DNA of 64,000 nucleotides from an uncultured Bacteroidota bacterium (GTDB lineage Bacteria > Bacteroidota > Bacteroidia > Chitinophagales > Chitinophagaceae): NCBI GenBank assembly GCA_903887415.1, contig CAISPO010000065.1, positions 1 to 64,000 on the forward strand, written 5' to 3'. This document shows positions 1,682 to 43,007 of the stretch, piece by piece. Position numbers and translations under genes: made by a program. The notes below the pieces were generated by a model. It made no database searches, was not told the origin of the DNA, and saw only the letters and a program-made list of their open reading frames with translations. Positions within the stretch are counted from its first letter, which is position 1; each line of letters begins with the position of its first letter.

Positions 1682-3064
1682 CTACTTTTTCCACTCAAAG
1701 TAAAATATAGTTCCTTGCCCCGGTATGGAATCGTACCATATTTTTCCTCCCTGCTCTTCTACTATCAGCTTCACGATGTTCAGCCCGAAGCCGGTGCTGG
1801 AATCTGCGGTGGAAACATTAGCAGTGGTCTTCATTAGGGCGAATACGGCATCTTTATCGGTTTCTGAAATGCCCATTCCATTATCTTTTACATAGAAACG
1901 GTAATAATCTCCCGCATCGGTATATCCTATCTCGATGATCCCTTGCTCCTTGCCATTGTACTTTATGGCATTGCTGATCAGGTTTTGAAATACCTGCTGG
2001 ATCTTGAGGTTCCGGGTTTTGAATACCGGCATTTTGTCCGCGATAATTATTTTAATGTTTTTAGGCGGAAACAGCAACACGGCCAGTTGGTTCAGCATCT
2101 CCTTTGTATCCACAGTTTCACTGTGTAGCTCTGCGAGGCTGATCTTTGAAGATTCCAGTAAGGAGTTAACCATATCGGATAAGTGCAAAGCTGCAGAGGA
2201 AGAAAGATTGGCGATCTCGGTAAGCTCCGGATTAGCGATCACTGTCTCATCTGCCTGTAAGAGAGACAGCGCACCTATGATGCCGGACAGTGGCGATTTA
2301 ACATCATGGGCTACCGTGTACACAAATTTCTCGAGCTGCTTATTGATCTTACCCAGCTCTGCCTCTGATACCTGGAGGGTATGCGTTTGCTGCTGCAGTT
2401 CTTCTATCGTATCCCGTAACTGCAACTGCACTTTTCTTCGCGCACTGAATTCGCGGGAGATGATGACGATGAGCACAATGATTATTATTTCAGACAAAAC
2501 GCTGTCCAGGCTGGAAGATAAAGTACCATAGTGAACAAGGCGGTCGTGCTCTTCGCGTCGTTTAGCCAGTAGTTTGGTCTCGTCGGCTTGTAATGTTTTG
2601 CTGATCGTGCGGATATCGTCCATCTGCCTCTTCTCATTATCGGTCAGTTGGGTTATATAGTCGCGCGTATATGCCGATGCATTATTGCCGTTATGTTCCC
2701 AGAATGTCATTAACCGGAAAATATGATCTTCCAGTATGGCTTCTTTGCCTGAGAGTCCGGTATCGTCGGAACAAAGGTTTTTCAATTCGGCCAGTGTTGG
2801 CTTTATCTGCAGCAGGCCTGCATTGTAGGGCTCCAGGAACCGGGCCTGGTTGGTAGCCCGAAAGCCCCTCCTGCCGGTTTCCATATCAATAATTACGCCC
2901 TGCACCCTGTTGGTACTGTCGAGCATCCGGCGGGCCTTGCGCACCCAAACACGCTGGTTTTCAGTTTTGTTAAGGATGAAATAGGACGTGAGCCCACTCG
3001 CTGCGCATAAGATAATAGCGATAGAAAAACCGATGTATAATCTTGTTCTGAAAGTAATCTGCAT
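1682..3064 (-). CDS. CHASE3-domain sensor histidine kinase
   Basis: Membrane sensor kinase of 460 residues. A transmembrane helix near the start (LYIGFSIAIILCAASGLTSY) is followed by a CHASE3-like periplasmic helical domain (METGRRGFRATNQARFLEPY), a second helix (IIIIVLIVIIS), a coiled coil, HisKA with VAHDVKSPLSG (phospho-accepting His), and HATPase_c with NLISNAIKYN, DNGMGI and GFGLNIV. There is no receiver domain and no regulator gene next door, so it is an orphan kinase. The ATG at 3064 is chosen because a promoter -7 box lies at 3080-3087; a possible start at 3109 would lie upstream of the transcript. The signal sensed is unknown. Confidence 0.88.
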   Translation of the reverse strand: MQITFRTRLYIGFSIAIILCAASGLTSYFILNKTENQRVWVRKARRMLDSTNRVQGVIIDMETGRRGFRATNQARFLEPYNAGLLQIKPTLAELKNLCSDDTGLSGKEAILEDHIFRLMTFWEHNGNNASAYTRDYITQLTDNEKRQMDDIRTISKTLQADETKLLAKRREEHDRLVHYGTLSSSLDSVLSEIIIIVLIVIISREFSARRKVQLQLRDTIEELQQQTHTLQVSEAELGKINKQLEKFVYTVAHDVKSPLSGIIGALSLLQADETVIANPELTEIANLSSSAALHLSDMVNSLLESSKISLAELHSETVDTKEMLNQLAVLLFPPKNIKIIIADKMPVFKTRNLKIQQVFQNLISNAIKYNGKEQGIIEIGYTDAGDYYRFYVKDNGMGISETDKDAVFALMKTTANVSTADSSTGFGLNIVKLIVEEQGGKIWYDSIPGQGTIFYFEWKK

Positions 3065-38964: not shown

Positions 38965-39963
38965 GTGAAAGCGATAATCCCAGTTGCAGGCGCCGGTACA
39001 AAGTTGCGCCCGCTTACATACACCCAGCCCAAGGCATTGATCCCTATTGCAGGGAAAACCATCCTTGGCGTTATAGTAGATCAGTTACTGGACGCCGGAG
39101 TTACTGAGTTTGTTTTTGTTATTGGCTACCTGGGCGAGAAGATCCAGCGGTACATTGATAAGACCTACCCGCATATGAAGCATACGTTCGTCACCCAAAA
39201 CGACCGGCGGGGCACAGGTCATGCCATATGGCTTACCAAAGACTTTGTGAACTCTGACGAAGTGATGATCGTGCTGGGTGACACTGTTTGCGATTACAAC
39301 GTTAAGGACATCCTCAACAGCAGTGTATCCCAGATAGGGGTACGCAAAGTTGACGATCCACGTAGTTTTGGCGTAGCCGAACTTAACGACAAAGACATGG
39401 TGGTCCGCATGGTGGAGAAGCCACTGATACCTAAGTCGAATATGGCTATGGTAGGCATCTACTATATAAAAGAGACGACTGCCATGTATGCTGCCCTCGA
39501 AAAACACCTGCACAATAAAGCAGATGAAAACGGGGAGTACCACCTTACAAATGCCCTGCAGCATATGATAGAAGATGGCATCACCTTTCATGCCTTCCGT
39601 GTCAATAACTGGTTCGACTGCGGGAAGAAAGAAACCTTGCTCTCTACAAATGCAATACTCCTGAAGCAAATGGAAGATGAGCATCCCGATAAGGAGCCGC
39701 TTTCTTTCGATACGACGGTAATAATTCCCCCGGTGAATATTGCCGAGGGTTGCACCATTCGCCATTGCATTATTGGTCCTAATGTCACCATTGGAGAGTA
39801 CACCAAAATGGAATCATCCATTGTTAAAGACTCGATCATCGGCTCCTATGCCGAGCTGCAGCAGGTAGTGCTCAACTCTTCGATCATAGGCAACGATGCC
39901 TACGTACGCGGCCTAAGCCAAAGCTTGAATATAGGCGACAACACAGAAATTGACCTGGGGTAG
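38965..39963 (+). CDS. Sugar-phosphate nucleotidyltransferase
   Basis: Protein of 332 residues. The N-terminal nucleotidyltransferase shows AGAGTKLRPLTYTQPKALIPI (nucleotide binding, lysine) and LGDTVCDYN; a left-handed beta-helix of hexapeptides follows (about 250-325: IAEGCTIRHCIIGPNVTIG). It resembles glucose-1-phosphate thymidylyl- or uridylyltransferases; the exact sugar is unknown. Start is GTG at 38965 with TATTTTTA at 38940-38947 as a weak -7 box. No pathway genes adjoin. Confidence 0.88.
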   Translation: MKAIIPVAGAGTKLRPLTYTQPKALIPIAGKTILGVIVDQLLDAGVTEFVFVIGYLGEKIQRYIDKTYPHMKHTFVTQNDRRGTGHAIWLTKDFVNSDEVMIVLGDTVCDYNVKDILNSSVSQIGVRKVDDPRSFGVAELNDKDMVVRMVEKPLIPKSNMAMVGIYYIKETTAMYAALEKHLHNKADENGEYHLTNALQHMIEDGITFHAFRVNNWFDCGKKETLLSTNAILLKQMEDEHPDKEPLSFDTTVIIPPVNIAEGCTIRHCIIGPNVTIGEYTKMESSIVKDSIIGSYAELQQVVLNSSIIGNDAYVRGLSQSLNIGDNTEIDLG

Positions 39964-40001
39964 CTAATAAATTTGTTTCATTTTCAGAGGTAACTGATAA
40001 T

Positions 40002-40051
40002 TTATTATTCGCCGTAACTATCTTTTATAGACCACTTACGGCGACTAATAA
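40002..40051. repeat. 50-bp palindrome, left copy
   Basis: TTATTATTCGCCGTAA (40002-40017), an 18-base loop, TTACGGCGACTAATAA (40036-40051): arms pair at 15 of 16 positions. It is a direct copy of the element at 41556-41605. The right arm also pairs perfectly over 13 bases with TCGCCGTAAGTGG at 40062-40074, so an additional half-element lies inside the cassette. Confidence 0.85.
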
Positions 40052-40111
40052 TTTTTATTGCTCGCCGTAAGTGGTATATTTTTACTACTTTTGGCAGGTA
40101 ATAATGCCATA

Positions 40112-41542
40112 ATGAATACACAAATCATAGGCAGGGAAGAAGAAATAAACATCCTTGAAAAACTCCTGAAATCTCGTGAGCCGGAGTTGCTCGCTATCTA
40201 TGGCCGCAGAAGGGTAGGCAAAACCTTCCTGGTGAAAACCTACTACAAACCGAATCTTATCTTTAGTTGCAGCGGGCAGTATAACGGCAAGACCAATGAG
40301 CAGCTCATCAATTTTTCAGAGCAGCTGAATATTTCTTTTCCGGCAAAGAAAATAACCTCACCAGCCGCCACATGGCAGGAAGCATTCAGCCGGTTGAGAG
40401 ATAGTATAGAGGCTATAAAGCACAAAAGGAAAAAAGTAATTTTTTTTGATGAGCTACCCTGGCTGGACAGTCACAAATCAGGGTTTCTTTCTTCATTCAG
40501 CTATTTCTGGAACATGTTTGCCGCTCAGCGGCCCGATATACTGGTTGTGATCTGCGGATCGGCTGCATCATGGATAATAGATAAAGTGGTAAATAATAAA
40601 GGCGGGCTGCACAACCGTATCACCCAGCGTATCAGGCTGCAGCCGTTCACACTAAAAGAGACCGAAAGCTACCTGCAGCACAAAAACATAAACCTGGACC
40701 ACTACCAGCTGTTGCAGCTATATATGGTGATGGGCGGTGTACCCGCATACTTAAATGCAATAGAACGGGGGAAAAGCACAGCACAGAATATTGAAAAGAT
40801 ATGTTTTTCAAAAGATGGAGTGCTGGCGAATGAATTTGATAACCTTTATACAGCATTATTTAGCGTACCCGAAAAACATATACAGGTAATACAAGCGCTT
40901 GCCCGGAAAAACAAAGGCCTTACACGGCTGGAGCTGCTTAAAGCAGGTAAATTCCCGACAGGAGGAGGTATGACGTCAGTTTTAAAGGAGCTTACCGAGA
41001 GCGGTTTTATTGACAAGGCCTACCCTTTTGGAAAAAAGGAGCGGGACAGCCTGTATCGCCTTACGGATGAATTTTCGCTGTTCTACTTCAAATTCATGCA
41101 AAACCAGAAAGGCAATGAAAAGGGACAATGGCTGAGCCGGCAATCAACCCCAGCCTATATAAGCTGGTGCGGGTATGCATTTGAGAACATTTGTCTGAAG
41201 CATATCGTGCAAATAAAGAAAAGCCTGCAAATAGGAGGGGTGCAATCCACATCATCTTCATGGGTCAGTGCCGGAAGCGAAAATGGTGCGCAGATAGATC
41301 TCCTGATAGACCGTGCAGATCATTGCATTAATATCTGTGAAATAAAATTCAGCGTCAAGCCATTCAGCATAGACAAAAAATACGCTGCTGCCCTCGAAAA
41401 TAAACTGATGGTTTTCCGCAGGCAAACGGATACGCGCAAAACACTGTTACTTACATTTATTACAGTCTATGGCCTTGCAGATAATACTTACAAACAGCAG
41501 CTTGCCGATAATGAAGTAACGATGGATGTGTTGTTTTTATAA
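40112..41542 (+). CDS. ATPase_2/DUF234 ATPase with nuclease-like C-terminus, palindrome-flanked
   Basis: Protein of 476 residues from the ATG. STAND-like ATPase: Walker A GRRRVGKT (about 31-38), Walker B KVIFFDELPWL, sensor ICGSAASW, then a winged-helix part (ARKNKGLTRLELLKAG) and DUF234 (FSLFYFKFM, YAFENICLKHI). The C-terminal AQIDLLIDR ... CEIKFS gives D and ExK spacing of the PD-(D/E)XK fold. Function of this family in Bacteroidota is unknown. It lies alone between two near-identical 50-bp palindromes. The ATG at 40112 is preferred to the TTG at 40058, which lies inside the left repeat zone. Confidence 0.88.
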   Translation: MNTQIIGREEEINILEKLLKSREPELLAIYGRRRVGKTFLVKTYYKPNLIFSCSGQYNGKTNEQLINFSEQLNISFPAKKITSPAATWQEAFSRLRDSIEAIKHKRKKVIFFDELPWLDSHKSGFLSSFSYFWNMFAAQRPDILVVICGSAASWIIDKVVNNKGGLHNRITQRIRLQPFTLKETESYLQHKNINLDHYQLLQLYMVMGGVPAYLNAIERGKSTAQNIEKICFSKDGVLANEFDNLYTALFSVPEKHIQVIQALARKNKGLTRLELLKAGKFPTGGGMTSVLKELTESGFIDKAYPFGKKERDSLYRLTDEFSLFYFKFMQNQKGNEKGQWLSRQSTPAYISWCGYAFENICLKHIVQIKKSLQIGGVQSTSSSWVSAGSENGAQIDLLIDRADHCINICEIKFSVKPFSIDKKYAAALENKLMVFRRQTDTRKTLLLTFITVYGLADNTYKQQLADNEVTMDVLFL

Positions 41543-41555
41543 AGGCTGTATTTAA

Positions 41556-41605
41556 TTATTACTCGCCGTAACTATACTTTTTTAACCACTTACGGCGAGT
41601 AATAA
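41556..41605. repeat. 50-bp palindrome, right copy
   Basis: TTATTACTCGCCGTAA (41556-41571), 18-base loop, TTACGGCGAGTAATAA (41590-41605): a perfect 16-bp inverted repeat. The loop (CTATACTTTTTTAACCAC) resembles that of the left copy (CTATCTTTTATAGACCAC). It begins 14 bases after the ATPase stop. Confidence 0.88.
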
Positions 41606-41707
41606 TTTTAAGCACAGGCATTCAAGGAGGTACACATGCGCTGCTTGCTTGAGAATAAATAACACCAATTTCTTTATAGAATGCAGGCGGGGTAAGGGGT
41701 TTTAGAT

Positions 41708-41715
41708 TATATTTG
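41708..41715 (+). promoter_or_regulatory. -7 box of serS
   Basis: TATATTTG, a perfect -7 box, 20 bases before the serS ATG. No -33 box is evident. Confidence 0.5.
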
Positions 41716-41735
41716 CGACCAATAATTTACTATTT

Positions 41736-43007
41736 ATGTTGCCCATACATTTATTCAGGCAGAACAAGGAACTGGTACTGGAAGGACTGAAGAAAAAAAA
41801 CTTCAAAGAACTGGAGCTGGTAGATAAGATCGCTAATATCGATGAGCGTCGCCGTGCGCTGCAGGTAGAAAACGATGCACTGGCTTCATCACAAAATGCG
41901 GCTGCCAAAAGCATAGGCCAGCTAATGGCCAAGGGCGATAAAGAAGGTGCCGAACTCCTGAAAGAAAAAGTTGGGCTGCATAAAGAGCAAGCCAAAGACA
42001 TAGCGCAAAAGCTCAGCGACCTGGAAACCGAAATGCAGGATATGCTGGTGCGCCTGCCAAACCTGCCGCACAGCAGTGTGCCGGCCGGCAAAACCCCGGA
42101 GGACAACGAGGTAGTGCGCGAAAGCGGAACCTTTCCCGATTTGTCGGCACAAAAACTGCCGCACTGGGATCTGGCAGCTAAATACGGCCTTATTGATTTT
42201 GAGCTGGGCAATAAAATTACCGGGAGCGGGTTTCCGGTTTTTATGGGGCAGGGCGCCCGGCTGCAGCGCTCGTTGATAAACTATTTCCTGAACTACAATA
42301 TGGACGCTGGCTACAAGGAATATTGCCCTCCCTTTATGGTTAATGAAGCATCAGCTTATGGCACAGGGCAGCTTCCCGATAAAGAAGGACAGATGTACCA
42401 TGCTGTGGCAGATAATTTTTACCTGATACCTACCGCCGAAGTACCGGTAACGAATCTGTACCGCGATACGATAATACAGGAAAACGAATTGCCTGTGAAA
42501 ATGACGGCCTATTCACCTTGCTTCAGGCGCGAGGCAGGCTCTTATGGCAAGGATGTGCGCGGCCTGAACCGCGTACACCAGTTTGATAAAGTGGAAATAG
42601 TGCAGCTATCGAACCCCGCTACCAGCTACGATGCGCTTGAGGATATGGTGAAACATGTGGAACTGCTTGTGCAGTCGCTGGGCCTGCCCTACCGCATACT
42701 CAGGCTTTGCGGCGGAGATATGAGCTTTGCATCAGCGCTTACCTACGACTTTGAAGTGTATAGCGCAGCACAGGAACGCTGGCTGGAAGTAAGTTCTGTT
42801 TCCAACTTTGAGACTTTCCAGACCAACAGGATGAAGATCCGTTATAAAGACGGCTCTGGCAAGACGCAACTGGTGCACTCACTGAATGGCAGCTCTCTTG
42901 CGTTACCACGCATTATGGCCTGCCTGCTGGAGAATAACCAAACCCCGGAAGGCATAAAAATACCCGCAGCATTGCAACCATATTTTGGAAAAGAAATGAT
43001 CTCTTAA
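41736..43007 (+). CDS. serS: Seryl-tRNA synthetase
   Basis: Class II aminoacyl-tRNA synthetase, 423 residues. The N-terminal coiled-coil arm (about 25-105) binds the long tRNA-Ser arm. Motif 2 is CFRREAGSYGKDVRGLNRVHQF and motif 3 is NGSSLALPRIMACLLEN. Single-gene unit with its own promoter. Confidence 0.97.
   Translation: MLPIHLFRQNKELVLEGLKKKNFKELELVDKIANIDERRRALQVENDALASSQNAAAKSIGQLMAKGDKEGAELLKEKVGLHKEQAKDIAQKLSDLETEMQDMLVRLPNLPHSSVPAGKTPEDNEVVRESGTFPDLSAQKLPHWDLAAKYGLIDFELGNKITGSGFPVFMGQGARLQRSLINYFLNYNMDAGYKEYCPPFMVNEASAYGTGQLPDKEGQMYHAVADNFYLIPTAEVPVTNLYRDTIIQENELPVKMTAYSPCFRREAGSYGKDVRGLNRVHQFDKVEIVQLSNPATSYDALEDMVKHVELLVQSLGLPYRILRLCGGDMSFASALTYDFEVYSAAQERWLEVSSVSNFETFQTNRMKIRYKDGSGKTQLVHSLNGSSLALPRIMACLLENNQTPEGIKIPAALQPYFGKEMIS

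Follow-up and report, generated by a model that had tools for sequence, protein, structure and literature searches.

In the available part of PMC12988326, PDC-S27 is described as an ATPase fused to PD-(D/E)XK, validation is said to be pending for most such defence candidates, and many of them are said to lie without association to known defence islands. PDC-S27 and PDC-S01, the latter an ATPase with DUF4143, number in the thousands in two defence surveys as far as their available parts go (PMC12988326, PMC13356809), and in the available part of the second they are only counted. The words palindrom, inverted repeat, promoter and operator are absent from the available part of PMC12988326, and in that of PMC13356809 palindrom occurs only within the name of CRISPR. 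Searching the openly licensed PMC literature, we found no paper on the mechanism of PDC-S27 or PDC-S01, nor on palindromes at these genes.

Cdc6/Orc1 initiators bind origin repeats, and RAYT transposases are encoded by single-copy genes next to REP palindromes. The locus analyzed here has features in common with each of these systems. It lies in the window, by which we mean the whole stretch of 64,000 nt that was analyzed, from an uncultured Bacteroidota bacterium of the Chitinophagaceae (GCA_903887415.1, contig CAISPO010000065.1, positions 1-64,000, forward strand). Its features are as follows.

40002-40051, + strand: palindromic unit 1 (distal upstream); 16-bp arms, 15/16 paired, 18-base loop
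40055-40104, + strand: palindromic unit 2 (proximal, decayed); 11/16 paired, overlaps the likely promoter
40086-40093, + strand: putative -7 box TACTTTTG, fitting TAnnTTTG, in the right half of unit 2; start codon 26 bases further on
40112-41542, + strand: ATPase-nuclease gene of the PDC-S27 family, 476 aa
40202-40225, + strand: Walker A, residues 31-38 GRRRVGKT; core invariant in 24 aligned proteins
40868-41062, + strand: winged-helix-like region (putative domain), residues 253-317, from predicted secondary structure and fold matches
41150-41521, + strand: predicted PD-(D/E)XK-type nuclease domain, with invariant E358, D396, E410 and K412
41556-41605, + strand: palindromic unit 3 (downstream); 16/16 paired, 18-base loop, orientation as unit 1

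An earlier note on this DNA had described two 50-bp palindromes around the gene, and both lie where it placed them, with the arms and loop that it gave; the right one begins 14 bases past the stop as claimed, so that 13 bases lie between. The half-element that it had noted at 40062-40074 is the kept left part of something larger, a full third unit at 40055-40104, in which the left arm is kept and the right half has diverged. The axis of this unit 2 is 53 bp from that of unit 1, and it is the most decayed of the three. TAnnTTTG is the consensus of the Bacteroidota -7 box, and within the window's units it is found in unit 2 and is absent from units 1 and 3. The 16-base arm, with at most three mismatches, matched the window seven times, five of them at this locus; the shuffle mean was 0.61, and none of 100 window shuffles reached seven. 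The gene start was read directly as the ATG, the ORF list opening the same frame at an upstream TTG, and the names of the neighbours, a sugar nucleotidyltransferase and serS, are labels given by the earlier note.

The gene product matched the PADLOC PDC-S27 profile PDLC04984 over its full length (E 9.5e-201, residues 1-475 on profile positions 1-473 of 474), and it shares with that family the union of ATPase and PD-(D/E)XK in a single gene. Members of PDC-S27 combine PF01637 with a C-terminus that is DUF234-like. The family had been said to have no assigned role; it is in fact a phage-defence candidate, as yet unvalidated, and its PADLOC assignment is what suggests a defence role for the window gene. 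In Pfam, PF01637 (ATPase_2) scored above the cut-off, and DUF234 (PF03008) fell below it with 20 bits vs 22.5 needed. NCBIfam and PHROGs scans gave nothing strong, and no transposase or recombinase family matched the gene in Pfam, PADLOC, NCBIfam or PHROGs. We aligned the window protein with 23 of 28 relatives (n=24; L009, L027, L030, L031 and L033 were dropped as partial). G31, R33, R34, G36, K37 and T38 of Walker A, D113/E114, and the C-terminal E358, D396, E410 and K412 were invariant, bearing out the ATPase motifs and the D...ExK reported before; we take the four C-terminal residues to be the PD-(D/E)XK site.

An AlphaFold2 model of the window protein had a mean pLDDT of 87.6. Its best Foldseek match, at a query-length TM-score of 0.50, was 2qen, a Pyrococcus ATPase; a STAND protein came next, and then Cdc6/Orc1 and ORC chains, including one in complex with origin DNA. 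The archaeal ATPase SSO1545 is likewise grouped with Cdc6/Orc1-like structures in the available part of PMC4599002. Judging from these matches, the core of the modelled protein is likely a DNA-binding AAA+ and winged-helix unit. The window protein would thus combine an ORC-like AAA+ ATPase, a winged helix and a PD-(D/E)XK domain of presumed nuclease activity; in the model it shares the AAA+ and winged-helix fold with Cdc6/Orc1 initiators but adds the nuclease domain.

We then looked at how regularly palindromes accompany the gene family. Among 35 non-redundant loci examined first, one of them the window's, 30 had a palindrome upstream and 12 had one downstream, against 5/193 control windows and 4/105 shuffles. 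A larger set of 61 consisted of the window and 60 further loci, with near-identical copies collapsed and cut-off starts dropped; 13 of 14 plasmid and phage regions, hand-picked from 139 plasmid and 8 phage matching records, were among them. Since this set contains some loci that are close relatives of one another, its counts should be read with that in mind: at 40% identity or more, 42 of 49 loci had an upstream palindrome within 330 bp, compared with 11/324 control windows and 5/245 shuffles, and 14/46 had a downstream hairpin of any kind. Below 40% identity there was no clear excess (5/12 loci vs 8/80 control windows). Three of the 42 positive loci have terminator-like hairpins alone; when such hairpins were excluded, 39/49 loci kept an upstream palindrome, 37/49 within 110 bp. 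The upstream regions of other genes had palindromes in 18/148 cases (7/64 ORFs near the ATPases and 11/84 serS, nucleotidyltransferase and ispE loci of the genus, five serS loci beside a cassette or scar being left out), and those of the window's mechanical ORFs in 0/32. Within 110 bp the figure was 39/49 for the ATPase loci, 6/84 for the serS, nucleotidyltransferase and ispE loci, and 0/32 and 3/64 for the window and neighbour ORFs, two controls weakened by the use of the most upstream ORF starts.

A unit profile built from 50 of the units, which for that reason tests where else units occur and not their presence, gave 74 matches within the 42.7 kb that adjoin the genes. The other 283 kb of these sequences, with the window counted in, yielded 3, all from one extended array that precedes the L016 gene. 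By this profile a unit lies upstream in 35/61 loci and downstream in 12/61, the remainder having other palindromes or none. Palindromes accompany the gene in Bacteroidota, in Pirellulaceae and on a Butyrivibrio plasmid. The extended upstream arrays of L016 (-922 to 0) and L040 (-680 to 0) have units mostly 135-157 bases apart, with spacers that are partly repeated, and the L106 gene is preceded, at -118, by a palindrome whose 20-base arms pair perfectly around a 14-base loop and whose axis is shifted from the usual one.

As a negative control we took DUF4143 ATPases of the genus (30 loci from 68 matches, 26 usable and four too short or cut), but they turned out to have palindromes as well: 23/26 upstream, 21/26 within 110 bp, or 21/26 and 19/26 without terminator-like hairpins. 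All eight of the DUF4143 proteins tested against PADLOC matched PDC-S01, with best-match E values no weaker than 2.5e-87. As far as the available descriptions of that family go, the two have in common a single gene for an ATPase with PD-(D/E)XK, and upstream palindromes, but differ in arm sequence: the window's unit profile had no match in the 30 DUF4143 loci, whose arms are quite different. Distant PDC-S01 copies on plasmids (6, from 25 listed of 530) had a palindrome within 330 bp in two cases and within 110 bp in none. The PDC-S01 palindromes (L189-L218; L201 in the window's own genome) are sometimes tandem, with a period of 32 in L209.

The arrangement of the units is regular. Successive upstream units, usually in tandem, had axes 52-56 bp apart in 22/27 cases, and in 74 units the arms paired at 1006/1184 positions, the axis of each unit having been picked for best pairing. 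Arm identity was 0.84 within a locus and 0.67 between loci, and the loops were often T-rich on the gene strand. Among mispairs in the arms, 41 were G-T, 50 A-C and 87 other; G-T is not above A-C, so the arms have no RNA wobble bias. TAnnTTTG was found in the right half of the proximal unit in 29/35 loci (window included) vs 17/700 shuffled units, a count partly built in because the unit profile favours TTTTGG; two of the 29 box-bearing units are Pirellulaceae-type and lie about 110 bp upstream. The palindrome thus overlaps what looks like the gene's own promoter box, as an autoregulated operator would.

If the protein reads the arms, the two might be expected to vary together. Over 28 loci the correlation between arm distance and protein distance was weak (rho 0.19; 9/500 permutations as high), 7 of 35 loci having been removed by hand (L052, L108, L146, L145, L111, L114 and L100: one broken copy, one partial, the rest in another arm register). 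Partial correlations with the arms were 0.28 for the ATPase part, 0.06 for residues 251-320, the winged-helix window, and -0.24 for the nuclease part. Coevolution of arm and protein was rejected as an argument: the signal is weak and peaks in the ATPase part, not in the winged helix, and this is unhelpful to a reading in which the protein recognizes its own arms.

Next, we analyzed where the gene occurs. In the genus, 17/35 genomes had a match, at several different sites; 15 of these 17 carriers had a single match, G014 had two, and G026 had one and two pieces of a broken copy. In a sample of the phylum, 16/296 genomes matched. The window genome (G000) has one PF01637 match, so that the description of the family as multi-copy fails for this genome, and it has the exact palindrome core at two places. 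Nor is the palindrome widespread without the gene: the exact core occurs in 3/149 genomes, namely the window's own, G001, where it stands beside the same gene, and G099, where the match (L005) sits inside an open frame. A GCCAAAACT-type pattern was found at 15 distinct places in the 35 genus genomes, 11 of them beside ATPase genes, all with a span of 32 bases, and four elsewhere with spans of 27, 28, 37 and 37; these four and the G099 place (L005, L086, L090, L091, L092) have no adjoining S27 or S01 gene. The pattern CGCCAAAACT...ACTTTTGGCG had no match in 395 class genomes, a result which is uninformative because the window's arms fall outside the pattern and the sampled gene carriers were unmatched too. 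A scan of IMG/VR with the window protein gave nine stretches that fit a pattern, with no relative among them.

At the nucleotidyltransferase-serS site the gene is present in four genomes, but not in all relatives: in G015 the two flanking genes are direct neighbours, the gap that separates them holds one decayed unit, and the genome has no gene match anywhere. Of the other loci lacking the neighbouring gene, 26 with nucleotidyltransferase had no unit on the downstream side and 25 with serS had none on the upstream side, although a few unrelated hairpins occur there; these loci are not empty sites, because the two genes are mostly non-adjacent there. A second site is flanked by what we take to be ispE and recG. 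Here the cassette is present between flanking units in G009, G021 and G034, and G002 has a short gap with neither gene nor palindrome, the sole such case among 30 loci examined, so the units seem to arrive with the gene. No target-site duplication was recognizable at the gene-less sites of G015 and G002, whose flanks are too diverged to show one. Compared in this way, the sites suggest that gene and units arrive together and that the gene can be lost, leaving one unit; for the G015 scar, recombination between units is a simpler reading than an earlier solo unit.

Sequence identities argue for horizontal spread. The ATPase of L008 is 72% identical to the window's and the serS of its genome 67%; twelve genus members have serS at 74-85% but ATPases at 48-53%; and the Pirellulaceae locus L018 has 46% for the ATPase and 34% for serS. 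Because the two sets of values are discordant, horizontal spread is supported, by a comparison of identities and not by a tree. Direct repeats bracket the gene in L018 (306 bp), L024 (69 bp) and L025 (45 bp). In L010, the 40-180 bases after the stop hold a downstream unit and then the gene's first codons once more in decayed form, apparently from a second copy that was truncated; an initial assignment of this remnant as a C-terminal piece was dropped, since by eye it matches the gene's 5' end.

The units, the family association, the promoter-like box, the two gene-less sites and the tree-discordant identities are all read from DNA and protein sequence. The palindromes lie in the promoter region, vary with lineage, are symmetric and are linked to the gene across phyla, so their binder most likely travels with them; the sole gene that travels is the ATPase-nuclease, whose fold is suited to DNA binding, and this favours an operator array recognized by its own product. 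We therefore give slightly better than even chances to the reading that the palindromes form a self-recognized, probably autoregulatory operator array on a horizontally acquired single-gene PDC-S27 cassette. The tandem palindromes would enclose the promoter, and the encoded protein would most likely bind them as a dimer or higher oligomer. By occupying the proximal unit, the protein would mask the -7 box and keep expression low, and further units could provide cooperativity or a tether for the nuclease; the downstream units are unexplained by simple repression. After its horizontal gain the cassette would have been inherited at a single site. Since units can flank the gene as direct repeats, homologous recombination could delete the gene and leave one unit.

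The earlier note had proposed a mobile or self-regulated cassette whose protein may recognize its own palindromes. Its view of an ATPase-nuclease cassette whose protein may do so gains from palindromes that go with the gene in several phyla and are rare elsewhere and from the Cdc6/Orc1-like model, and self-regulation gains from the promoter-like box inside the proximal unit. As to mobility, support extends to horizontal acquisition and probable loss and no further: there was no recognizable target-site duplication, neither a transposase domain nor multi-copy spread was seen, and across several species the copies keep one site. A recurrent DNA tag at the promoter would offer a concrete ligand for binding and reporter tests and a hint of how a potentially harmful nuclease may be restrained without a partner gene. 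The palindromes also give a sequence handle for locating intact copies and the scars of lost ones.

A more specific and rather speculative idea, which we hold to be unlikely, is that the lineage-specific arrays of PDC-S27 and PDC-S01 are docking sites that keep the nuclease bound, scarce and harmless, and that an invader which disturbs their occupancy or the promoter releases the nuclease. The array would then be operator and sensor in one, and would also permit clean deletion of the cassette.

TnsA and TnsC act together, the one a nuclease and the other a target-selecting ATPase. By analogy the palindromes could be the ends of a self-mobile element, cut by the nuclease domain while the ATPase selects targets. 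Direct repeats on both sides of the gene in the window and in other loci (up to the 306 bp of L018, with L024 and L025), a weak phmmer match to TnsC (E 0.011), the horizontal spread and the gene-less sites of G015 and G002 would all suit such an element. But downstream units are found by profile in 12/61 loci against 35/61 upstream, one copy is the rule (15/17 genus carriers) with no dispersed palindromes, the site is kept across species, no target-site duplication was recognizable in the diverged flanks, and none of the transposase or recombinase families searched matched. The window gene resembles RAYT genes in being single-copy beside palindromes at one site, and differs from them in the same two respects, transposase match and dispersed palindromes. 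Because downstream units are optional, copies mostly single and sites stable, we rank a self-transposing element below the operator array and consider it unlikely; independent transposition is not supported.

Alternatively, a host factor could be the binder, or the units could work through structure alone, as cruciform, terminator or insulator. Gapped palindromes could indeed form cruciforms or terminate transcription, and the T-rich loops and a few terminator-like hairpins (the 3/42 loci with such alone) would fit this, but the arms vary between lineages while being common to the units within a locus. As the palindromes stay with the gene in Bacteroidota, Pirellulaceae and the Butyrivibrio plasmid, their binding partner should travel with the gene, and we regard this explanation as distinctly unlikely. 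That the units are repeats only, passively duplicated and without function beyond the promoter, seems improbable to us: duplication and decay are visible in the 5'-end copy of L010 and the 306-bp repeat of L018, but the arms stay paired despite differing between loci, even if best-pairing axes were picked. Finally, repeats acting as RNA, by analogy with type III toxin-antitoxin systems, whose tandem repeats function as RNA, would account for tandem repeats before a nuclease gene and for the extended arrays of L016 and L040, but this is highly improbable given that the arms lack wobble bias, that units also lie downstream, that Rfam gave no match above threshold in 39900-41760, and that a proximal unit with the promoter-like box inside it would not be transcribed from that box.

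Other sequence motifs were noticed upstream of further homologues. A record of the Wolbachia phage WO (L152) has a PDC-S27 relative among portal and head-tail genes, and upstream of position 3001 there are two tandem repeats with ACCACGGT or ACCGCGGT and GCCGCGGT around TATAAT. The haloarchaeal homologues L150, L155, L157 and L158 have in common a motif close to AAGTCATTATCGNNNTAATCATTA in the last 40 bases before the start codon.
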